Source: a virus
Virus record (IMG/VR): IMGVR_UViG_3300008450_000454
Location: 1-23,709 of that record
Reading direction: 5' to 3' (one strand)
DNA: 23,709 nucleotides
Below are positions 2,703-22,462 of this stretch, in pieces. Below the pieces are notes generated by a model. It was not told the DNA's origin and did not search any database. It saw only the letters and a program-made list of their open reading frames with translations. Both the position numbers and the translations under genes were made by a program. The first letter of the stretch is position 1. Each line of letters starts with the position of its first letter.

Positions 2703-2709
2703 TTACTAA
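2700..2709 (+). repeat. Left copy of 10-bp near-direct repeat flanking the HNH gene
   Basis: TAATTACTAA here includes the gp4-like stop codon. TAACTACTAA at 3233-3242 differs at one position. Together they bracket the 2710-3232 segment that contains nearly all of the minus-strand HNH gene, whose TAG stop lies inside this left copy. This could be a remnant of the ancestral gene junction or a by-product of insertion. Confidence 0.5.
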
Positions 2710-3194
2710 ATGGTACACGCGGCATGGTACTTTCGTTTTGCTTCAAGGTAGACTTGATGAGCTTCTTCTGGTGTGCTGTAGTCGCCAAGCCATTTAGTCT
2801 TTCCGTTGACAGACATGCTGGCACGCCATTTATTTTGAAACCAAATCACGCCCATAAAGCCAGATTTGTTGCGGCGATTGGGCTTGCGAACATTCTGCGA
2901 ATTGCCGTCTGCAAAAACATCGCGCAAGTTTTCAATTCGGTTATCCGCTTTGTTGCCGTTGATGTGATCTATCAGACCTTTAGGCCATTCCCCGTGCGTG
3001 TACAGCCACGCCAAACGATGCGCTTTGTAGATGCGGCCAACAATGCCAATGGTGATGTATCCGATACGTTTTTCAACACACCCCGCGACATCGCCTGCTT
3101 TGACCGCTCTGCTTGGCCGAATTTTCCATACAAACGCGCCCGTCTTAGCGTCATAATCAAGCGTTTCTTTCAACTGCGCTGCCGTCAATGTCAT
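2706..3194 (-). CDS. Free-standing HNH homing endonuclease with AP2 domain
   Basis: A 162-residue protein on the minus strand, starting at ATG 3194-3192 with AAGGA (3205-3201) 6 nt upstream. Residues about 55-92 carry an HNH_3-type core: 'AHRLAWLY', 'DHINGNKADNRIENLR'. Residues about 108-157 form an AP2-type DNA-binding domain ('NKSGFMGVIWFQNKW' through 'EEAHQVYLEAKRKYH'). This domain pair is characteristic of phage homing endonucleases, which make site-specific double-strand breaks in DNA lacking the element. It is inserted between two structural genes that normally adjoin and faces against them, so it must be transcribed from its own or an antisense promoter. Catalytic His and Asn residues appear intact. 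Confidence 0.9.
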   Translation of the reverse strand: MTLTAAQLKETLDYDAKTGAFVWKIRPSRAVKAGDVAGCVEKRIGYITIGIVGRIYKAHRLAWLYTHGEWPKGLIDHINGNKADNRIENLRDVFADGNSQNVRKPNRRNKSGFMGVIWFQNKWRASMSVNGKTKWLGDYSTPEEAHQVYLEAKRKYHAACTI

Positions 3195-10384: not shown

Positions 10385-11956
10385 ATGGCCGACCAGTTTC
10401 AAGAGCAGATCAAAGCCGCGCGTCGTGCGGGGTACACCGACGACGAAATTGTCGGCCACTTAAAAGGCCAAGACCCCCGCGTTAGCACCGCGCTGGAAAG
10501 CGGATATAACGCCAGCGAGATTCTTGGTTATCTTGCGCCGCCGCGCTCTACCGGCGAAGAAGTTGCAAGAAAGATCGGCGTTGCTGCGCGTGGCGCGTCA
10601 GAAGCCTTGGCACCAGTCGCAACAGGCGCGGCCACCGGATTCATGATGGGCGGCCCCGTAGGCGCGGGCGTGGGCGCGTTGGCGGGCGGGTTGGCTGTAC
10701 CTGTGGCCGATCTAGCCGTACAAGGCTACAACCGGCTGGCCGGTGGTAACGTCCAGATGCCTTCGCAAGTCATCTCCAATATGTTGCCTGGGCCACGGGC
10801 GGAAACGCCCACAGAACGAGTCGTTCAAGCCAGCGGCAGCGCGTTAGGAAACGTCGGAGGTTCAGTCGCGGCTGGCCGCGCTATTGTGAACGCTGGCCGA
10901 TCCGCGTTTGGTATGCCTTCGCCCGTAGCACAACAAACGCTGAATATCGGCGAGGAGGCCGCGCGTCGTCCAGTAGGTCAGATCGTTGCGGCGCCGCTTG
11001 CTACCGCAGCAGGGCAGACCACAACAGAACTGACCGAAAACCCGCTGGCCGGTCTGGCTGTCGGCGCGGCTACTGGCATGGCGGCGGGCGTGCGGCCTGT
11101 CAAGCGCGGTGCAGTGCCTACCGCAGAACAACTGGCTACGCGGTCTAAAAAGAACTACGACATTTTGGAATCGTCAGGGTTTGAAATAGATTCCAAGCAA
11201 TTTAACGACCACATGAGCGGAATGGCAGCCAAGCTGCGGTCTTCGGCAGGATACGACCCGCGCACCATGCCCGTCATAGATGCTGCGTTGGCGCAACTGA
11301 CCGCGCCAGCGGCAAAAACGGTGGCTGAATTACAGACGCTGCGTACCATCGTAAGCAACGCGGCCAAAAGTAATAGCCCGCCCGAGCGTAAAGCGGCAAG
11401 CCAACTCTTAGATGATTTCGATGAGTATGTAATGAACGCGCCCGCCGTATCCGGCGACGCGAAAGCCGCGCAAGCGTGGAAAGAAGCGCGGGCTGACTAT
11501 TCCAAGATGAAGAAAAGCGAGTTGATAACGGACATCATCGACAACGCTGAAGTGTCCCAAGGAACTAAAGACGCAAGCATCGCGGGTCAACTTTCTGCAT
11601 TGGCAAAAAACCCTAAGAAGATGCGGTTTTTTTCTGCTCCGGAACAGGAAGCAATCCGTGAAGCCGCCAAGGGCGGGAACTTACAAGCTGCACTTCGCAT
11701 AGCGGGAAAGTTTTCGCCGGTAACGCCAGCCGCCGCTATTTTCACCGCGTTCAATCCGTTTGGCGGCTACACTGCTGCCGCAGGTATGGCCGCTAAAGGC
11801 ATGGCGGATGTGCGCCGCACCCAGCAAGTAAACAGGCTGGCGAGTCAGATGCGTCTGGGGGAGCGTCCGCCAGTCATTGAAGGCGCGATGGCAAACACGC
11901 CGGTGTTTGTAGCAAGAAACATCCAAAATATGCTTGCCCAACAAAATCAGCCATGA
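10385..11956 (+). CDS. Ejection-type internal virion protein with Gly-rich membrane segment (third of three)
   Basis: A 523-residue protein starting at ATG 10385, just after the previous TAA. The N-terminal 50 residues have two copies of a UBA-like pattern ('ARRAGYTDDEIVGHL' and 'ALESGYNASEILGYL'). Residues about 77-120 are a Gly/Ala-rich hydrophobic stretch with GxxxG spacing that could insert in membrane. Residues 240-430 are helical. This architecture fits a DNA-transfer protein that spans or enters the inner membrane. The end shares ATGA with the next gene, linking it to the lysis cassette. Confidence 0.7.
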   Translation: MADQFQEQIKAARRAGYTDDEIVGHLKGQDPRVSTALESGYNASEILGYLAPPRSTGEEVARKIGVAARGASEALAPVATGAATGFMMGGPVGAGVGALAGGLAVPVADLAVQGYNRLAGGNVQMPSQVISNMLPGPRAETPTERVVQASGSALGNVGGSVAAGRAIVNAGRSAFGMPSPVAQQTLNIGEEAARRPVGQIVAAPLATAAGQTTTELTENPLAGLAVGAATGMAAGVRPVKRGAVPTAEQLATRSKKNYDILESSGFEIDSKQFNDHMSGMAAKLRSSAGYDPRTMPVIDAALAQLTAPAAKTVAELQTLRTIVSNAAKSNSPPERKAASQLLDDFDEYVMNAPAVSGDAKAAQAWKEARADYSKMKKSELITDIIDNAEVSQGTKDASIAGQLSALAKNPKKMRFFSAPEQEAIREAAKGGNLQAALRIAGKFSPVTPAAAIFTAFNPFGGYTAAAGMAAKGMADVRRTQQVNRLASQMRLGERPPVIEGAMANTPVFVARNIQNMLAQQNQP

Positions 11957-12186
11957 ACTCACAAGACCTTCTTAACATAGCCTTTGGTGTGGCCTCCAGC
12001 GTGTTGGGCTGGTTTGCCCGCGAAATGTGGTCTGCGGTCAAGGAACTAAAAACTGATCTTGCTAAGCTGCGCGAGGAGTTGCCTCGGTCATACGTCATGA
12101 AAGAGGACTATCGCAGAGACATTTACGAAATCAAAGAAATGCTCAACAAGATATTTGACCGGCTTGACAATAAGGTTGACAAATGA
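11953..12186 (+). CDS. Small membrane/coiled-coil protein of the lysis region
   Basis: A 77-residue protein starting in the ATGA overlap at 11953. The first ~27 residues ('NIAFGVASSVLGWFAREMW') form a hydrophobic or amphipathic helix that may act as a membrane anchor; the remaining 50 are charged and helical ('VKELKTDLAKLREEL', 'YEIKEMLNKIFDRLDNKVDK') with coiled-coil heptads. Similar small proteins commonly precede phage holins. It could be a holin partner or a short inner-membrane spanin; the cytoplasmic/periplasmic side cannot be decided. Its stop overlaps the holin start. Confidence 0.6.
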   Translation: MNSQDLLNIAFGVASSVLGWFAREMWSAVKELKTDLAKLREELPRSYVMKEDYRRDIYEIKEMLNKIFDRLDNKVDK

Positions 12187-12665
12187 ATGAACTTCTTCGA
12201 CTTCTGGGAAGCGTTGCCCCTGCTCTGGCGGGTATTGTTGCTGGACCTGCCGGCGGTGCTGCTGTGTCTGCTATTGCTCGGCACTTGGGAGTAGCGGATA
12301 CCGTTGAGGCGGTGACGCAGGCAGTCAAGGCAGACCCAGACGCCGCGTTGAAGCTGGCGCAGATTGATCTGGAAACGATCAGAGTTCAGCACGCCAACAC
12401 CGAAAACGCTCGGGCCATGCAAGTCGCTGCGCTGGCTCAGTCGGATGTGTTCAGCAAACGCTTCACGATGTACTTGACCTCGTTTTGGAGCATTGCTGCG
12501 GCGGTCTACATTGGCTTCATTACGTTCAGCATAATTCCTGAAACAAATGTCCGGTTCGCCGACACGATTCTCGGATTCATATTGGGCACGGTGATCGCAA
12601 CCATGTTGAACTTCTGGTTTGGTTCCAGCATTGGCAGTAAGGAAAAAGATGCGCGAAAACTTTGA
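12183..12665 (+). CDS. Holin, 3-TM type
   Basis: A 160-residue protein starting in an ATGA overlap at 12183. It has an Ala/Gly-rich N-terminal hydrophobic segment (residues 8-32), a charged helical middle ('ALKLAQIDLETIRVQHANTE'), and two clear membrane helices ('FWSIAAAVYIGFITFSII', then 'ILGFILGTVIATMLNFWF'). This matches the 3-TM holin family described for gene-transfer agents and many phages. It would permeabilise the inner membrane to release or activate the endolysin encoded next. The endolysin start lies within the last 17 bp of this gene. Confidence 0.8.
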   Translation: MNELLRLLGSVAPALAGIVAGPAGGAAVSAIARHLGVADTVEAVTQAVKADPDAALKLAQIDLETIRVQHANTENARAMQVAALAQSDVFSKRFTMYLTSFWSIAAAVYIGFITFSIIPETNVRFADTILGFILGTVIATMLNFWFGSSIGSKEKDARKL

Positions 12666-13164
12666 GAAAAGTTTAGCCGAGCTGCTCAAGCACGAAGGCG
12701 GTTTTGTCAACCACCCCAGCGATCCTGGCGGCGCTACCAACTTGGGCGTAACGCAGGCCGTCTGGGAGGATTGGATTGACCGCGCAGTTAGCGAAGAAAA
12801 CATGAGGGCGCTCACGCCGTCCAAGGTCGCGCCGCTGTACAAAGAACTGTACTGGGACAGGATCAAGGGCGACAAGCTGCCAAGCGGCGTGGACTACTGC
12901 GTGTTTGATGCCGCCGTTAACAGCGGTGTGTCTCGCGCAGCTAAATGGCTCCAGACAACTGTTGGCGCTGTTGCAGACGGCGCGATTGGTGAGCAGACGA
13001 TGAAACAGGTGTTGCTGACCAACCCCCAAATGATCGTTGATAAGTACAGCGCGATCCGGCTGGAGTTTCTCAAGGGTCGCAGCACCTGGCCCACGTTTGG
13101 CAAGGGCTGGGCGCGCCGGGTAGAAGAAGTCCGAGCCACCGCGCTGAAGATGTGTGGCGGCTAA
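12649..13164 (+). CDS. Endolysin, glycoside hydrolase family 108
   Basis: A 171-residue peptidoglycan hydrolase. I chose ATG 12649 (MRENFEKSLAELLKHEGGF) because AAGGA at 12639-12643 lies 5 nt upstream, rather than an upstream GTG at 12619. The motif 'LKHEGGFVNHPSDPGGATNLGVT' region marks GH108, with Glu16 of 'HEGG' as the expected catalytic acid. The second half ('VGAVADGAIGEQTMKQVL', 'YSAIRLEFLKG', 'GWARRVEEV') matches the peptidoglycan-binding-3 region that normally follows. There is no signal peptide, so release depends on the holin just upstream. It cuts murein glycan strands for host lysis. Confidence 0.92.
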   Translation: MRENFEKSLAELLKHEGGFVNHPSDPGGATNLGVTQAVWEDWIDRAVSEENMRALTPSKVAPLYKELYWDRIKGDKLPSGVDYCVFDAAVNSGVSRAAKWLQTTVGAVADGAIGEQTMKQVLLTNPQMIVDKYSAIRLEFLKGRSTWPTFGKGWARRVEEVRATALKMCGG

Positions 13165-13331
13165 TCCTGCTCCTGCTAGCCGGATGCGCTAGTCCTCCTG
13201 AGGAGGACGATCTTTGGTACTGTCAGGAGCGGGGAGCGTATCTGTACTGTGTTCCTGAACGCTCCATCGATGTCCTGTCTGGCACTCGAAACGCCGGTAA
13301 CGCCCATACGGTCGGGGGCGAGACTCGATGA
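13152..13331 (+). CDS. Small lipoprotein of the lysis cassette (possible outer-membrane spanin)
   Basis: A 59-residue reading frame starting at GTG 13152 within the end of the endolysin gene (13-bp overlap) and ending at TGA 13329-13331. The N-terminus is Met-Trp-Arg plus 'LILLLLAGC', a short signal peptide with a convincing lipobox, so Cys11 would be lipidated. The mature part is 'ASPPEEDD' followed by two cysteines in 'YCQERGAYLYCVP'. Small lipoproteins after an endolysin are usually o-spanins (Rz1-like), which disrupt the outer membrane with an inner-membrane partner. Proline content is lower than in typical Rz1 and no clear Rz gene encloses it. It overlaps antisense with the zinc-ribbon gene for 143 bp. 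Confidence 0.7.
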   Translation: MWRLILLLLAGCASPPEEDDLWYCQERGAYLYCVPERSIDVLSGTRNAGNAHTVGGETR

Positions 13332-13368
13332 TCTTGGCGTGCCTGCCGCACTCAGGACATTTGATCAC
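13189..13368 (-). CDS. Zinc-ribbon microprotein (last gene of minus-strand operon)
   Basis: A 59-residue frame on the minus strand from GTG 13368-13366 to TAG at 13191-13189. It contains 'IKCPECGRHAKIIESRPR' and, 18 residues on, 'RYRRFECQTGHRW', giving a Cys-Cys...Cys-His set suited to bind zinc, similar in layout to Ogr/Delta-type and other phage zinc-finger regulators. An in-frame TGA lies four codons upstream, so GTG is the only nearby start. It overlaps the preceding coiled-coil gene by 17 bp in another frame, consistent with translational coupling. The last ~18 residues are Pro/Asp/Glu-rich and probably disordered. Role unknown; DNA/RNA or protein binding is likely. Nearly the whole gene lies opposite the lipoprotein gene. 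Confidence 0.7.
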   Translation of the reverse strand: MIKCPECGRHAKIIESRPRPYGRYRRFECQTGHRWSVQEHSTDTLPAPDSTKDRPPQED

Positions 13369-13504
13369 GCCAGGCTTTCAACATCAGTTTCAGGTCGGCC
13401 CGCAGCGCTTCGATCTCGGCCTGCTGCTCTTTGATCTTCTCGTTTGCTTCTTGGGCGAACTGCACCAGCGTCTCGCGCTGCCAGGCTTCAAATTCGTTCG
13501 GCAT
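13352..13504 (-). CDS. 50-aa coiled-coil microprotein
   Basis: A 50-residue protein from ATG 13504-13502 to TGA at 13354-13352. Almost all of it is one charged helix with heptad pattern ('FAQEANEKIKEQQAEIEALR'), so a dimeric or trimeric coiled coil is likely. No membrane segment. The start lies inside the preceding 59-aa gene (17-bp overlap). I do not recognise a family; small coiled-coil proteins of this kind are common near phage lysis and replication regions. Confidence 0.65.
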   Translation of the reverse strand: MPNEFEAWQRETLVQFAQEANEKIKEQQAEIEALRADLKLMLKAWRDQMS

Positions 13505-14359: not shown

Positions 14360-15624
14360 TTAAGCGCCTCCATCGCGATGTCTGACACCGACCGCTTGTC
14401 TTCTAACGCCCGCACGATCTTCTCGTCCACAGTGCCCCTGGTGATCATCCGGTAGCACCAGACATCATGGCGCTGACCGCTGCGGTGCAGTCGCCCCACC
14501 GTCTGCTCGTAGAGTTCCAGCGACCACGGCAGCGAGAAGAACACGATATTGCTGCCGCCGTGCTGAAGATTCAGCCCGTGCCCCGCTGACTTGGGGTGGA
14601 TCAGCAGCAGCTCTATCTTCCCGTCGTTCCAGTCATCAATCGAGCCTTCGATGGTTCTGGCCTTCGGGTAGCGGCGCTGGAGTTCTTCCAGTTCCGCTTG
14701 GAAATTGTAAACAACTATTGTATTGGCGCGTTGGTTTTCTTGCAAAAGATTGTCAAGCGCGTCGAATTTGTGTGGCGAGGTATGCACCGTCGTTTTGCTT
14801 TCGGCGTAAACAAACCCTGACGCCAGTTGCTGTAACTTAGCCGTGACGACGGCGGCGTTGGCAGCGATGGCGCGCTCATCACCGTAGCGCAGCACCATCT
14901 CTTGCTTCATTGCCTTGTAGTCGACCATGTCCATCTCGCAGTCAACGTCCACGGTGTGCAGCGGCGGCAGCTTGTCGGCGTACTCGCCTGGCTCCAGTAC
15001 GAACGTGGCGTGCTTGATGCGCTCCATGACCATCTTGAGCGCGCCCGCGCGCGGCTCCCATTGGCCGAATTCCTTGTTGATAAGTACGAAATACTGTTGC
15101 TGAAACGCGCCCTTGCTGCGGCCCAGCAGGGATTGGTCGATGATCTTGCACTGACCGAATACGTCTTCCAGACCGTTGCTGGTAAACGATCCGGTCAAGC
15201 CCCACCTGATCTGGATCGGGTCAATGACTTTGAGCAGCGCCTTGAACCGCGCGCCGGATGGGTTCTTCAGCCGCGTGAGTTCGTCAAACACGATCCCGTC
15301 GAACGGGCGCATATTGTTCGACAGCCATTGCAGATTGTCGTAGTTGGTGACCGTAATGTCAGCGTCCTCCATCAGCGCCTTCAGCCGTTGCGCTGGCGTG
15401 CCGACGCATACAGCCACCGACAGGTTCGGCGCCCACTTCTTTGTCTCGGTCGGCCAGACCGACACGGCCACCCGTTTCGGGGCGACGACAAGGAACCTTC
15501 CAAGACCCTGCATCGCGGCCAGCGTGATGGCGGTCTTGCCCGCGCCCACAGGTGCGAGGATCATCGCGCGGTCAAGTCCGTACAGGAAGTCAGCGGCAAG
15601 GTCTTGGTACTCACGCAAGTTCAT
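14356..15624 (-). CDS. SNF2-type DEAD/DEAH-box helicase
   Basis: A 422-residue ATPase. I chose ATG 15624 because AAGGA (15635-15631) lies 6 nt upstream; an earlier TTG at 15642 lacks this. It carries the SF2 set: 'REYQDLAADFLYGLDRAMIL' Q-like region, Walker A 'APVGAGKT' (about residue 30), Walker B 'IVFDELTR', motif III 'LTGSFTSN', motif V 'PKSAGHGLNLQ' and motif VI 'EQTVGRLHRSGQ'. This compact SNF2 form is common in phages of this replication type, usually close to a VRR-NUC gene, and is thought to remodel or unwind DNA in replication or recombination. It overlaps the methyltransferase by 14 bp and the next small gene by 4 bp. Confidence 0.92.
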   Translation of the reverse strand: MNLREYQDLAADFLYGLDRAMILAPVGAGKTAITLAAMQGLGRFLVVAPKRVAVSVWPTETKKWAPNLSVAVCVGTPAQRLKALMEDADITVTNYDNLQWLSNNMRPFDGIVFDELTRLKNPSGARFKALLKVIDPIQIRWGLTGSFTSNGLEDVFGQCKIIDQSLLGRSKGAFQQQYFVLINKEFGQWEPRAGALKMVMERIKHATFVLEPGEYADKLPPLHTVDVDCEMDMVDYKAMKQEMVLRYGDERAIAANAAVVTAKLQQLASGFVYAESKTTVHTSPHKFDALDNLLQENQRANTIVVYNFQAELEELQRRYPKARTIEGSIDDWNDGKIELLLIHPKSAGHGLNLQHGGSNIVFFSLPWSLELYEQTVGRLHRSGQRHDVWCYRMITRGTVDEKIVRALEDKRSVSDIAMEALK

Positions 15625-16990
15625 TTGCGATCCTTTTGCCAATCCACCGCACTACGGGCACGGCCCATGAGTTACCAAGCGCCTTGTACCGGGGGCCGTC
15701 AGGCGTCGGCTTACCTTTAGGTTTAATGTCGGTGTAGTCGTCAGGGAAGCCTTGCAGGCGTTCGCACTCCACAGGCGTTAGGCGGCGCACTCGCATTGAT
15801 TGCGGCCCCATCACCACCGCGTGTTCGGCGTTGCTGCGCGCCAGCGTGTGGCACGGGTCGCCCGGTGTTCTGCTCTGGCGGTTGACAGGCGCAGTGATGT
15901 TGAAGAAGTCGTAGGTGACGGGTTGTTCGATAACGTCAACAAAGTGACCCCCGTTGATAGGAATCAGCGTCTCCGTTTCGGCGTCGTAGCGTTTCCCTGT
16001 CCCCGAAGTAAGGCACAGGGACAAACAAGGCACCCCCCCATTGATGTGTTGGTCTTCTAAGCCTTGCTTGTCGCCAAAATGCGCGTCTAAAGTTGTGGCT
16101 ATCTCGGCGGGCCAAGTTTTAACTGGTGCAAGATATGCACCTCGTTGACTAAAAATTTCTTGATTGCTCATGCCAACACCCCCGCAATTACCCGCTTGGG
16201 TTAGTGTTGGGTGTGCAAAATCGCCATCCCAATGAGATGGGCGCTTTACACCTACGAAATGATTTCCGGCGGCACCTTCTGGTCGCCCTCCTGCACCACC
16301 GCTAAAAGCGCTTCGCGTAATTGTTCCGGCAACTTCTTGCCTCTTTTCTCTGCTCGGCGCAGTATCCCGGCGCACGCCGTCGAACTCAAAAAGAACCGCT
16401 GCGGGATCGAAGTCGTCTCTAGCACTTGCGATAACGAACACACGGCGGCGTCGTTGGGCCACTCCGAAATATTGGGCGTCAAGGATTCGCCACGCAACTG
16501 CTCTTTTGGCTCCATCAACAAAACCAGCGTTAGCCCATCGGCCCCCTGGTGGGATGAGCGCATCATCTTCACCGGCAAGCGCACCCAAAAAGCACCCAAA
16601 GGCGTTGTCTTTGGTGTTGAGGACGCCGGGGACGTTTTCCCAGAAGACAATGCTTGGGGTAGTTCTAACTGAGTCGATTGCATCGGCGATCTCGCAAAAA
16701 GTCAAAGAAAGGTTGCCGCGCGCATCGTCAAGCGAGTGACGCAAACCAGCAACAGAAAACGCTTGGCACGGTGTGCCACCGCAAAACAGATCGGGCGCTT
16801 CCACTTCACCCGATCTGATGCGATCAGGCAGGGAAGTCATGTTGCCAAGGTTGGGCACACTAGGGTAATGATGCGCCAGCAAAGCGCACGGGAACGGCTC
16901 AATCTCGGAAAGCCATGCAGCTTCCCACCCAAGCGGATGCCACGCGACCGACGCCGCTTCAATCCCGCTACAAACGCTGCCAAATTTCAT
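15611..16990 (-). CDS. DNA C5-cytosine methyltransferase
   Basis: A 459-residue protein from ATG 16990, which lies 23 bp inside the VRR-NUC gene; an upstream start at 17017 would add nine unconvincing residues. Motifs of the family appear in order: motif I 'FGSVCSGIEAASVAWHPLGW', motif IV 'GGTPCQAFSVAG' with catalytic Cys, motif VI 'ENVPGVL', motif VIII 'QRRRRVF', a variable target-recognition region (about residues 215-395), motif IX/X 'RRLTPVECERLQGFPDDY' and 'YKALGNSWAVPVVRW'. It transfers methyl groups to cytosine. No cognate restriction enzyme is present in the window, so it is an orphan methylase, plausibly shielding phage DNA. An alternative-frame ORF lies inside at 16252-16683. Confidence 0.93.
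   Translation of the reverse strand: MKFGSVCSGIEAASVAWHPLGWEAAWLSEIEPFPCALLAHHYPSVPNLGNMTSLPDRIRSGEVEAPDLFCGGTPCQAFSVAGLRHSLDDARGNLSLTFCEIADAIDSVRTTPSIVFWENVPGVLNTKDNAFGCFLGALAGEDDALIPPGGRWANAGFVDGAKRAVAWRILDAQYFGVAQRRRRVFVIASARDDFDPAAVLFEFDGVRRDTAPSREKRQEVAGTITRSAFSGGAGGRPEGAAGNHFVGVKRPSHWDGDFAHPTLTQAGNCGGVGMSNQEIFSQRGAYLAPVKTWPAEIATTLDAHFGDKQGLEDQHINGGVPCLSLCLTSGTGKRYDAETETLIPINGGHFVDVIEQPVTYDFFNITAPVNRQSRTPGDPCHTLARSNAEHAVVMGPQSMRVRRLTPVECERLQGFPDDYTDIKPKGKPTPDGPRYKALGNSWAVPVVRWIGKRIANELA
16252..16683 (-). CDS. Alternative-frame ORF inside the methyltransferase gene (possible overlapping gene)
   Basis: A 143-residue frame from ATG 16683, wholly inside the C5-methyltransferase coding region, same strand, different frame. 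Its second half ('NDAAVCSLSQVLETTSIPQR', 'FFLSSTACAGILRRAEKRGK', 'LPEQLREALLAV') looks like a real helical protein and I recall closely similar sequences annotated as separate phage proteins next to or within methyltransferases; this recollection needs a search. The methyltransferase frame in the same stretch is also clearly conserved ('AQRRRRVFVIASARDDFDP'). The ribosome site is weak. It may be a true dual-coding gene or a conserved shadow caused by constraint on the enzyme frame. Confidence 0.4.
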   Translation of the reverse strand: MQSTQLELPQALSSGKTSPASSTPKTTPLGAFWVRLPVKMMRSSHQGADGLTLVLLMEPKEQLRGESLTPNISEWPNDAAVCSLSQVLETTSIPQRFFLSSTACAGILRRAEKRGKKLPEQLREALLAVVQEGDQKVPPEIIS

Positions 16991-17240
16991 CAATCTGCTC
17001 CTTGCTCCAGACGACAACGTATCGCTGGTTGAGGCGCATCATATCTTCGGCAAAAACTTTTTGCAAGGCAGACAGCCGACCGCCTTCGGTCTTGACCTCA
17101 ACGAACCATGTCTCACCGTTCGGCAAGCACACAATTCGGTCGGCTACACCGGCCCTGCCGGGGCTAACGAACTTGTACGCCCGCCCTCCACACGCCTCAA
17201 CACGCTTCACTAGGTATCGTTCGATGTCACGTTCAAGCAT
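16968..17240 (-). CDS. VRR-NUC domain nuclease
   Basis: A 90-residue, single-domain protein from ATG 17240, first gene of the minus-strand operon. It has the VRR-NUC signature of the PD-(D/E)xK superfamily: an N-terminal helix 'ERDIERYLVKRVEACGG', 'KFVSPGRAGVADRIVCLPNG' with the Asp, then 'TWFVEVKTEGGRLSALQ' with the E-x-K pair, and a closing strand 'RYVVVWSKEQID'. Stand-alone phage VRR-NUC proteins are structure-specific nucleases (Holliday-junction or flap type) and are typically found with SNF2 helicase and polymerase genes, as here. It overlaps the methyltransferase by 23 bp. No good ribosome site is seen. Confidence 0.9.
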   Translation of the reverse strand: MLERDIERYLVKRVEACGGRAYKFVSPGRAGVADRIVCLPNGETWFVEVKTEGGRLSALQKVFAEDMMRLNQRYVVVWSKEQIDEIWQRL

Positions 17241-19328: not shown

Positions 19329-19715
19329 ATGATGGAAAACTGGAAAGACATACCCGGTTATGAAGGCCGGTATCAAGTGAGCGATCAAGGCCGCGTCAAG
19401 TCATTTTGCAGGCGCGCTGAGGGTGTACTTTTACGCCCTGGCAGGATGCCTGAAGGCCACCTATCCGTGGCGCTAGGTAAGGGTAATTCTCAAACTGTTC
19501 ACAGACTTGTTTTGCTCGCGTTTGTTGGCGCTCCGCCGGAAAAACATGAGTGTTTGCACGGTAATGGTATTCCGTCTGATAACAGGCTGGAAAATTTACG
19601 GTGGGGCACGAGGGGCGAGAACATACGCGATGCATACACGCACGGCGCGAGAGACCGCGAAAAGAATCGCGCAGCGTTGGCAAAAGGCCGCGCGACAAGA
19701 TGGGGTCATGTGTGA
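19329..19715 (+). CDS. Free-standing NUMOD4-HNH homing endonuclease
   Basis: A 128-residue protein. Residues 3-25 ('WKDIPGYEGRYQVSDQGRVK') are a clear NUMOD4 DNA-binding motif. Residues about 56-95 contain the HNH core 'VHRLVLLAFVGAPP', 'LHGNGIPSDNRLENLRWGTR'. The C-terminus is basic ('REKNRAALAKGRATRWGHV'). Homing endonucleases of this type cut allelic sites and spread by repair. It sits directly upstream of the DNA polymerase, and its TGA overlaps the polymerase GTG start (GTGA, 19712-19715), so the polymerase is translated as its coupled neighbour. Either ATG at 19329 or 19332 could be used; no strong ribosome site. Confidence 0.9.
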   Translation: MMENWKDIPGYEGRYQVSDQGRVKSFCRRAEGVLLRPGRMPEGHLSVALGKGNSQTVHRLVLLAFVGAPPEKHECLHGNGIPSDNRLENLRWGTRGENIRDAYTHGARDREKNRAALAKGRATRWGHV

Positions 19716-22462
19716 CTGTACTTTTTGTGGATTTCGAGACAAAGAGCGCCTGCGACCTAAAAACCGCAGGCGTTTACAACTACGCGCAGGACATCAGCAC
19801 AGAGGTTCTGTGTATGTCCTACGCTTTCGACGATGAACCTGTACAGACTTGGGTTCCTTTTTGTACAGATGCCACCGGACGTGTACAGAAAAACCCTTTT
19901 CCTGTACAGGTCGCCCAGTTCACCGGCCAGATCAGGGCGCACAACGCGGCCTTCGAGCGGCTGATCTTCTGGTACGTCCTACAGATCGAGTTCAAGTTGG
20001 AGCAGTTCTACTGCACCGCCACGCAGGCCCGCGCCAACTGTGCGCCTGGTTCGCTGGAAGACGTTGGCCGGTTCTTCGGCGCGTCGATGCGGAAGGATCA
20101 CCGAGGCGCGCATCTGGTGCGGCAATGCTGCGTCCCCCCGTACAACACCGCGTTGCTGCCTGAGCTGTACAGTTACTGCGAGCAGGACGTTCGGGCGATG
20201 CGCGCCATAAGCAACGGACTGCGCCAGTTGACCGACGATGAACTGCTTGACTACCATGTCAACGAACGCATCAACGACCGAGGCGTGTTGGTCGATGTAC
20301 CGCTGGCGCGCGGTGCTGTGCGGTATGCCGCGCAGGAGGTCAAGGACATCGAGCAGATCGTCGTCGAGGTGACGGGCGGCGCTGTGCCGACCGTGCGGTC
20401 GCCGAAAATGAGGGAGTGGGTCTTCGAGCGTCTGGACGAAGAAGGCCAGAAGCTGATGATGGTCGAGGGCAAGAAGTCCATCGACAAGACTGTGCGCGCC
20501 AACTTGCTCAACACCAACCTCGACTCGGATGTGCGCGAGGTCATCCAATCAGCCGACGACCTCTGGGCGTCGTCGGTCGCCAAGTTTCAACGGATGGCCG
20601 ATCTGGCCGACGTTGAGGATCACCGCGTGCGCGGCGCGTTTGTCTTCGCTGGCGGTTCGGCCACCGGGCGCGCATCGTCCTACGGGCTGCAAGTCCACAA
20701 CTTCGGGCGCAAGTGCCACGCCGACCCCGAGGCTGTGCGCGCGGCCATCGTCGAAGGTCGGTCGGTTGTGCCTGAGTTTGGTGTTCGCATTACGGACGTT
20801 CTGAAAACCATGCTGCGCCCCGCTATGCGCGGCCCGTTTACCGTGGCAGATTGGTCGGCTATCGAGGCGCGGCTGACGCCGTGGCTGTCTGGTGACGGTG
20901 AGGAAGTGCTAGACGTGTTCCGCGCGGGCGGTGATATTTACGTCAACGAAGCCATGAAGATGTTTGGGCGTGTAACCCCCGAGCTACGCCAGATCGGCAA
21001 GGTCGCCGTCCTCGCTTGCTTTGGCCCACAAACCCAAGTGTTTACAAACAACGGGCTGAAGGCTATAGTGGAGGTTCAATCAACAGACCTTTTATGGGAT
21101 GGGCAATCATGGGTGACGCATCAGGGAGTGATTTCAAAGGGGCTTCGACAGACTATCAACGTGTGCGGCGCGGAAGTAACGCCGGAACATTTGATAAGAA
21201 CCCAGCAAACTTGGCTTCCGGCGAAGCAACTCGTTTCAAACAAACGATTGTTGACCCAAGCATTGGGAGTCGGTTCGGCCAACTTACCTTATTGGGCGTT
21301 GAAATCCGCAAACATGGCGCATCCAAGCAGCGCATGGCACAGGTTCAATGCGATTGCGGCGCTGCGCCACATTTTGTTTACATTTACAACCTTCTTAAAG
21401 GCGCGTCTACACGATGCCCTACTTGTGCAAAAGCAGCGTCTGGCTATTGGCGCAAAGATTTTTTCAAGTATGCCGACGCTTGCCCCGATGACGCGCATCG
21501 TCGGCGGTTGCTTAACCGCTTGTCGGCTTGCAAGAATAGATGCCACAACCCAAAAGACAGCGTCTACGCGAACTACGGTGGGAGGGGCATCACATTGTAT
21601 GAGCCTTGGCGCGTCGATAAGGCCGCGTTTCTCCGTTACGTTCTTACGTTGGACGGGTGGGATCAGCCTTACCTTGAATTGGATCGCATCAACGTGGACA
21701 AAGGGTACGAACCAAACAATCTTCGGTTTGTCACTCGCAAAGAAAACGTGCGAAACAGGCGATGTGTTCAAGAAATGCAGCAGCGAATTATCGAGCTTGA
21801 AGCCCGTATTCGACATTTTGAACAGCGGCCCAAGGAATCAATTCACGATCCTGACTGACGCTGGCGCGCTGATCGTACACAACTGCGGCTTCGGCGGTGG
21901 GCATAACGCCTTTGCTGCTATGGGCAGGGCTTACAACGTCAAGATGTCCGAAGCCGAGGCACGCCAGACGGTCGAGGCGTGGCGCAGGGCGAACCCTTGG
22001 GCTGTGCGCTACTGGTCTGATCTTGAGTGGGCCTACAACGCCGCCATGCGGAACCCAGGCGAACACATCAAAGTCGCCCGTGTGACCTACTGTTTCAACG
22101 GGCAACACCTATGGTATTCGCTGCCTTCGGGGCGTATTCTCTGTTACCCGTTTGCCAAGATCGAGGAAGACGGCATCACCTACGCGAAGGCCGCGTGGAA
22201 GCCCGCCCAAAATGCAACAGAGTGGCCGCGCGCGAAGTTGTGGAAGGGTTTGGCCTGCGAGAACATTACCCAAGCGACCGCCAACGATTTGTTGCGCCAC
22301 GCGCTGCGCCAGATCGACAACGTGGTGCTGCACGTTCATGACGAAATAGTGGTCGAGGGCGACTGCCCCGACCTCGAACGGATTATGTGTACCCCGCCCG
22401 CGTGGGCGGCGGGTCTGCCTCTGAAAGCAGAAGTCAAAAAAATGGAGAGATACGGCAAATGA
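19712..22462 (+). CDS. Family A DNA polymerase with 3'-5' exonuclease, interrupted by an intein
   Basis: A 916-residue precursor (about 627 residues after splicing). I prefer GTG 19712, in a GTGA overlap with the HNH stop, giving 'MTVLFVDFETKS'; ATG 19700 is possible. The exonuclease domain shows 'VDFET' (Exo I), 'IRAHNAAFER' (Exo II) and 'YSYCEQDVRAM' (Exo III). Polymerase motif A is 'ADWSAIEARL' (Asp codon 20849), motif B 'RQIGKVAVLA' joined after splicing to 'CGFGGGHNAF', and motif C 'HVHDEIVVEG' (Asp codon 22340). The position equal to E. coli Phe762 is Leu. No 5'-3' exonuclease domain. It replicates the phage genome; activity must depend on removal of the 289-residue intein at 21017-21883. 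It ends in an ATGA overlap with the primase. Confidence 0.92.
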   Translation: MTVLFVDFETKSACDLKTAGVYNYAQDISTEVLCMSYAFDDEPVQTWVPFCTDATGRVQKNPFPVQVAQFTGQIRAHNAAFERLIFWYVLQIEFKLEQFYCTATQARANCAPGSLEDVGRFFGASMRKDHRGAHLVRQCCVPPYNTALLPELYSYCEQDVRAMRAISNGLRQLTDDELLDYHVNERINDRGVLVDVPLARGAVRYAAQEVKDIEQIVVEVTGGAVPTVRSPKMREWVFERLDEEGQKLMMVEGKKSIDKTVRANLLNTNLDSDVREVIQSADDLWASSVAKFQRMADLADVEDHRVRGAFVFAGGSATGRASSYGLQVHNFGRKCHADPEAVRAAIVEGRSVVPEFGVRITDVLKTMLRPAMRGPFTVADWSAIEARLTPWLSGDGEEVLDVFRAGGDIYVNEAMKMFGRVTPELRQIGKVAVLACFGPQTQVFTNNGLKAIVEVQSTDLLWDGQSWVTHQGVISKGLRQTINVCGAEVTPEHLIRTQQTWLPAKQLVSNKRLLTQALGVGSANLPYWALKSANMAHPSSAWHRFNAIAALRHILFTFTTFLKARLHDALLVQKQRLAIGAKIFSSMPTLAPMTRIVGGCLTACRLARIDATTQKTASTRTTVGGASHCMSLGASIRPRFSVTFLRWTGGISLTLNWIASTWTKGTNQTIFGLSLAKKTCETGDVFKKCSSELSSLKPVFDILNSGPRNQFTILTDAGALIVHNCGFGGGHNAFAAMGRAYNVKMSEAEARQTVEAWRRANPWAVRYWSDLEWAYNAAMRNPGEHIKVARVTYCFNGQHLWYSLPSGRILCYPFAKIEEDGITYAKAAWKPAQNATEWPRAKLWKGLACENITQATANDLLRHALRQIDNVVLHVHDEIVVEGDCPDLERIMCTPPAWAAGLPLKAEVKKMERYGK
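21017..21883 (+). mobile_element. Intein in polymerase motif B
   Basis: In the polymerase frame a Cys codon (21017) starts block A, 'CFGPQTQVFTNNGLKAIVEV', and block B 'GAEVTPEHLIRT' follows with the TxxH signature about 55 residues later. The end carries 'VFDILNSGPRNQFTILTDAG' and 'ALIVHN' with the penultimate His and terminal Asn, then the +1 Cys of 'CGFGGG'. The block F His position appears to be Asn/Arg ('PRNQF'). These are the residues needed for N-S shift, transesterification and Asn cyclisation. Insertion is six residues after the catalytic Lys of the O-helix, a conserved active-site location typical for inteins. Total 289 codons; roughly 180 central codons are non-Hint and hold an endonuclease in another frame. 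Confidence 0.9.
21094..21858 (+). CDS. HNH homing endonuclease encoded out of frame inside the intein
   Basis: In the -1 frame relative to the polymerase, an open frame runs to TGA 21856-21858. The recognisable protein begins near 21262 ('IGSRFGQLTLLGVE'), has a zinc-ribbon 'CDCG...CPTC', then the typical phage HNH-like region 'LLNRLSACKNRCHNPKDSVY', 'NYGGRGITLYEPW', 'LELDRINVDKGYEPNNLRFV' and 'TRKENVRNRR', ending in a helical 'QQRIIELEARIRHFEQR'. The given start, ATG 21094, is the first ATG in frame; ATG 21109 is another. Neither has a good ribosome site and the sequence before 21262 looks like a shadow of the Hint frame, so the true start or a frameshift is unresolved. Its 3' end overlaps the C-terminal splicing domain. 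Confidence 0.8.
   Translation: MGWAIMGDASGSDFKGASTDYQRVRRGSNAGTFDKNPANLASGEATRFKQTIVDPSIGSRFGQLTLLGVEIRKHGASKQRMAQVQCDCGAAPHFVYIYNLLKGASTRCPTCAKAASGYWRKDFFKYADACPDDAHRRRLLNRLSACKNRCHNPKDSVYANYGGRGITLYEPWRVDKAAFLRYVLTLDGWDQPYLELDRINVDKGYEPNNLRFVTRKENVRNRRCVQEMQQRIIELEARIRHFEQRPKESIHDPD

Follow-up and report, generated by a model that had tools for sequence, protein, structure and literature searches.

Convergent tail-to-tail overlap of a small lipoprotein gene and a stand-alone zinc-ribbon gene next to the lysis block of a freshwater phage

We examined a 23.7-kb IMG/VR virus record from a freshwater phage, referred to here as the window (the whole stretch of DNA that was analysed), and identified two opposite-strand protein genes that share their 3′ coding ends and thus form a convergent overlapping pair (Table 1). 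One encodes a small lipoprotein and the other a stand-alone zinc ribbon. It is very probable that the pair consists of two real small genes that overlap tail to tail at the junction of the plus-strand lysis block and a minus-strand gene block, their tails being tolerated by-products of compact packing. The functional part of the lipoprotein (codons 1–40) would then adjoin that of the zinc protein (codons 1–39), with about 22 bp in common, and beyond that point each gene would cross the opposite core as a disordered tail until a chance stop. We infer that the lipoprotein would act as a lysis accessory and the zinc ribbon as a DNA-binding regulator, each being made through coupling to the preceding gene.

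Table 1 Coordinates of the overlapping pair, its parts and the neighbouring genes in the window
Feature	Position	Strand	Remarks
Small lipoprotein gene	13152–13331	+	59 aa; GTG start; lipobox LLAGC; lipid Cys is residue 12
Lipoprotein core	13152–13271	+	Codons 1–40: signal peptide, then C12, W22, C24, G28, C33, VPxRSID
Lipoprotein tail	13272–13331	+	Codons 41–59 and stop, opposite the zinc core; mostly by-product frame
Stand-alone zinc-ribbon gene	13189–13368	−	59 aa; GTG start; last in the minus-strand block
Zinc-ribbon core	13252–13368	−	Codons 1–39; C4, C7, C29 and H33 invariant in 56 relatives
Zinc-protein tail	13189–13251	−	Codons 40–59 and stop, opposite the lipoprotein core; mostly by-product frame
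Sole stretch constrained in both frames	13251–13272	Both	Lipoprotein codons 34–40, zinc codons 33–39; about 22 bp
77-aa protein, start of the lysis cassette	11953–12186	+	One membrane helix and a coiled coil; found with and without the lipoprotein
Holin-like membrane protein, lysis cassette	12183–12665	+	phrog_1544, no named function; syntenic in most relatives
GH108 endolysin, directly upstream of the lipoprotein	12619–13164	+	PF05838 (8e-30), phrog_315 (1.1e-50)
50-aa coiled-coil gene upstream of the zinc gene	13352–13504	−	17-bp overlap; in most, not all, relatives

The plus frame begins with VWRLILLLLAGC, which holds the lipobox, and the ligands of the zinc ribbon are arranged as C4-x2-C7 and C29-x3-H33. 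A previous sequence-only reading of this DNA had reported 59-aa frames on both strands with a 143-bp overlap, and its coordinates, lipobox and Cys/His pattern were all reproduced. The DNA common to both frames (13189–13331) takes up around 80% of each 59-codon gene. It lies in phase (123:132), at which codon position 1 faces position 1, and position 3 faces position 2 of the opposite gene. The lipoprotein GTG at 13152 precedes the endolysin stop (13162–13164), so that the gene starts inside the end of the endolysin gene; likewise, the zinc GTG at 13368 precedes the stop (13352–13354) of the 50-aa coiled-coil gene and lies inside the end of that gene. Judging by these start/stop overlaps, it is plausible that the translation of each gene is coupled to that of its upstream neighbour.

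Both frames were intact, in the same arrangement, in the window and in 17 distinct IMG/VR contigs, with indels in the 17 relatives occurring only in multiples of three. Since the window and 17 relatives keep both frames, the pair of ORFs is more than a chance occurrence, and sequence comparison indicates that both small genes are real and that their overlap is conserved. The GTG starts that had been described for both genes hold for the window but are not fixed: the lipoprotein of some relatives starts with TTG and has a better signal peptide (MKKLKQLQIVLLLTGC), that of others starts with ATG (MKRLAAWLSLLLAGC), and the zinc gene of some starts one codon later. The window's lipoprotein has both a signal peptide and a lipobox, the former being short (11 aa). 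Despite three kinds of signal peptide, the lipobox Cys was invariant across 17 aligned sequences. The lipoprotein gene is thus supported from outside the overlap, as the signal peptide was swapped in some relatives while the lipobox Cys stayed, and as the gene also follows another lysis cassette in L008 and two additional small genes in L035. All lipoprotein carriers are fairly closely related and form a single group; the tests reported below, in which codons were taken as independent, therefore rest on few independent changes.

Substitutions tracked the plus frame over 13189–13251 and the minus frame over about 13273–13331. Among 17 sequences that were aligned, plus positions 1/2/3 had 0.71/0.52/1.48 changes per site over 13189–13251, as expected for a plus-strand gene, and 0.54/2.07/0.85 over 13252–13331, as expected for a minus-strand gene. 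The constrained frame therefore switches in the middle of the overlap. Purifying selection in relatives, which the sequence-only reading had put forward as a test for each frame, was found in the core of each, with pN/pS of 0.32 for zinc codons 13–32 and 0.40 for lipoprotein codons 13–33. In the lipoprotein core, pN was low and variation fell mostly in codon position 3.

True dual coding, at which the full-length proteins including their tails are selected and all 143 bp carry two messages, is improbable. It would agree with the intact frames and the in-frame indels of the 18 carriers (window included), where the tails are present at similar lengths. It would also agree with the lipoprotein-synonymous rate opposite the zinc tail, which was lowered to 0.337 compared to 0.497 for the endolysin (random codon sets were as low in a fraction of 0.005); on the basis of this rate, the zinc tail may be under weak constraint or selection. 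On the other hand, the zinc-synonymous rate opposite the lipoprotein tail was near neutral (0.434 vs 0.497 for the endolysin; random codon sets were as low in a fraction of 0.15). The naive pN/pS exceeded 1 in both tails (1.53 for zinc codons 40–59 and 1.42 for lipoprotein codons 41–59), in a phase at which nearly every silent change in one frame alters the opposite protein.

The predicted structures and the openness of the frames also speak against dual coding. AlphaFold gave the zinc protein a pLDDT of about 85 for residues 1–40 and 54 afterwards, while the lipoprotein, for which the overall model was poor (58), was given strands at 22–27 and 30–35 and a pLDDT below 50 from residue 40 on. 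Both proteins are thus predicted to be ordered up to about residue 40, with disordered tails. Open frames opposite the cores are expected by chance: the antisense of the lipoprotein core was open for at least 20 codons in 84% of random synonymous recodings, and that of the zinc core stayed open over 17 codons or more in 100% and over 22 or more in 96%. Stop-codon avoidance was considered as a sign of selection and was rejected, since these simulations show that open frames are expected anyway.

Constraint in both frames did not extend through most of the overlap and was found in 13251–13272 only, where it is clear; this short stretch is genuinely double and, to that extent, fits dual coding. 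There, the synonymous rate pS was 0.031 for the zinc gene and 0.171 for the lipoprotein gene, compared to 0.497 for the endolysin. Zinc codon 33 was CAT and codon 39 was GAA in all 18 lipoprotein carriers, the window included, whereas the lipoprotein-less relatives L076, L077 and L078 had CAC at codon 33 and GTC at codon 37, and lipoprotein-less L075 had GAG at codon 39. As L077 and L078 are identical in this zone, these represent three independent cases rather than four. The former suggestion of two recognisable proteins encoded on the same DNA thus fails over most of the overlap: the two domains share only about 22 bp and, in the remainder, the core of one gene faces the tail of the other. 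The phage pair does not place two folded domains on a single piece of DNA.

Close zinc relatives without the lipoprotein (L075–L078) kept the zinc core and had unrelated zinc tails; this replacement of the tail also argues against dual coding. The sequence-only reading had named the loss of one frame with retention of the other as an observation that would go against its proposal, and this was found in one direction, as these four relatives keep the zinc Cys/His residues with no lipoprotein. In L075 and L076, the zinc core still faces an open frame that runs to the same stop site and resembles the lipoprotein tail. In lipoprotein-less relatives the zinc tail overlaps whatever closes the lysis block, namely the holin gene in L076 and the endolysin in L077 and L078, with both partner and length varying.

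The complementary 143 bp of coding sequence between the convergent genes could also be kept for antisense regulation, at which lysis and minus-block transcripts pair and time lysis. A precedent exists in Escherichia coli, where arfA RNA regulates the convergent mscL (PMC10070815). Nevertheless, this explanation is very improbable, as no structured or covarying element was detected, the folding z-score was −2.0 on the plus strand and 0.1 on the minus strand, and the overlap partner and length differ among relatives. It is likewise very improbable that the full proteins are functional over all 143 bp and that, in addition, complementary transcripts regulate the timing of lysis, making the overlap a dense sense-antisense element of coding and control. 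As with arfA-mscL in Enterobacterales, the phage pair consists of functional genes that meet at their tails, where their 3′ sequences are complementary, and the length and presence of the overlap vary between species (PMC10070815). It differs in that antisense RNA regulation was demonstrated for arfA-mscL (PMC10070815), whereas for the phage pair it is suggested by the geometry, and in that one gene of the phage pair encodes a lysis-block lipoprotein.

A perfect 7-bp inverted repeat (GTCCTCC-TGA-GGAGGAC) was detected at 13192–13208, just within the stop of the zinc gene. It was rejected as a conserved hairpin or terminator, as it is broken in some relatives (L043 and L061 do not maintain it), its minus side has no T run and the encoded residues S-P-P-E-E-D explain the repeat.

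Returning to the two tail-to-tail genes, the zinc gene is a member of a broad family of ribbons that stand alone in phages. Residues C4, C7, R25, R26, C29 and H33 were invariant in 56 zinc-protein sequences. All 56 aligned relatives matched the NrdR-type ribbon PF22811 at E ≤ 0.01 (best 5.8e-15), and 39 of them matched Ogr_Delta (PF04606) at the same threshold; the profile of the 56 relatives also matched solved NrdR chains (E 0.0003). The window protein by itself scored under the curated cut-offs, with 0.0013 for PF22811 and a weak 0.022 for PF04606. Searching phage databases with both proteins, as had been proposed, gave one weak tblastn match for the zinc protein and none for the lipoprotein, and scans of prokaryote genomes yielded no relative of either. 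The zinc protein shares with the NrdR ribbon and the Ogr/Delta finger the pattern CxxC ... Arg-Arg-x-Glu-Cys ... His-Arg. Unlike these references, it has His as the fourth ligand (C-x3-H), and the ATP-cone that follows the ribbon in an NrdR repressor is absent, the protein ending in its disordered tail instead. A fold search with the zinc-protein model gave no significant match. By its sequence, the protein is best described as a stand-alone NrdR-type ribbon with a tail that varies with the opposite gene and, most simply, as a putative small DNA-binding regulator with a ribbon of the NrdR/Ogr type.

The lipoprotein had no match in Pfam, PHROGs or NCBIfam, and no known o-spanin family was matched in these or in the phage collection. 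It directly follows a lysis gene in the late block of nearly all carriers. The endolysin in the window likely starts with the ATG at 12649 (the listed ORF begins at 12619), and the upstream holin-like membrane protein is a putative holin. The lipoprotein was found behind two cassettes, GH108 in most carriers and a different lysozyme and holin in L008; L076, which has the L008-type cassette, has no lipoprotein. The gene is thus separable and closes two different lysis cassettes.

In L008 and L076, a 139-aa lysozyme-like protein and a 127/128-aa holin-like protein take the place of the GH108 endolysin, while the genes on either side stay the same. In L035, once oriented, two extra small genes lie between the endolysin and the lipoprotein (from 640 to 213 bases ahead of the start of the zinc gene), and the lipoprotein start is re-formed as VRWLILLLLAGC, overlapping the last inserted gene.

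We tentatively consider the lipoprotein as an outer-membrane lysis accessory, possibly an o-spanin-like subunit. This role is the best single guess because of the position at the end of the lysis block, the lipobox and two conserved Cys residues in a predicted beta hairpin. Members of the T4-type o-spanin family have no proline-rich region and two conserved Cys (PMC6139136). Like the T4 PseT.2-type o-spanins, the phage protein is a small lysis-block lipoprotein with a lipobox that fits [LVI][ASTVI][GAS]C, has no poly-proline and carries two conserved Cys where a beta region is predicted (PMC6139136); unlike them, it matches no family and is missing from some relatives that have the same cassette. 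An unsafe i-spanin candidate is the 77-aa membrane/coiled-coil protein, which is also found where the lipoprotein is absent and has charges that favour the opposite topology.

An outer-membrane superinfection-exclusion protein or another moron lipoprotein, acting outside lysis, is somewhat unlikely, yet such a role in exclusion or as another accessory has to be taken seriously as a rival, because the protein matches no profile in Pfam, PHROGs or NCBIfam, the candidate for its partner is unsafe, and it can be absent from the same cassette (L076 vs L008). The gene is also separable and lies behind unrelated genes in L035. Its position directly after a lysis gene in the late block of nearly all carriers speaks against a moron, as do the two conserved Cys in the predicted beta hairpin, which recall T4-type o-spanins by resemblance only (PMC6139136).

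Elsewhere in the window, an intein-like insert (21017–21883) was identified in the family A DNA polymerase gene; the insert begins with CFGPQTQVFTNNGLKAI and ends with ALIVHN before C. Inside it, a 280-aa frame (21016–21858) lies on the same strand in a different frame and contains an HNH-like stretch (NRCHNPKDSVYANYGGRGI); both the insert and the inner frame are open, the latter with no Pfam match. Two free-standing homing-type HNH genes were also detected, one at 2706–3194 (minus strand; HNH_3 and AP2), opposite to the strand of the structural gene block, and the other at 19329–19715 (plus strand; NUMOD4 and HNH_3). A C5-cytosine methylase frame (15611–17017, minus strand) shares its upstream end with part of a VRR-NUC nuclease gene (16968–17240, minus strand).

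The overlapping arrangement had been taken as rare, but convergent overlaps are no rarity among prokaryotes. Of the 1218 convergent overlaps in a survey that covered 58 prokaryotes, 49% were in phase (123:132), the commonest one, in agreement with an origin by stop loss (PMC2174442). Like those overlaps, the phage pair joins opposite-strand 3′ ends in phase (123:132), and it can be explained by stop-codon loss followed by extension (PMC2174442); it differs in that its 143 bp are long relative to the size of the genes. The pair is a conserved new example of this established class, in which two tiny genes overlap over an unusually large part of their length, and otherwise an ordinary instance of how compactly phages pack their genes.

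The pair offers a clean natural test of how antisense overlaps evolve, as seven zinc codons are frozen at silent sites where the lipoprotein is present and variable in close relatives without it, and outside those seven codons the overlap costs little. It is also a warning that the openness of an ORF opposite a gene, and even its amino-acid conservation, can be a by-product. Moreover, an unannotated lipoprotein is described here, together with a zinc ribbon that is common in freshwater phages.
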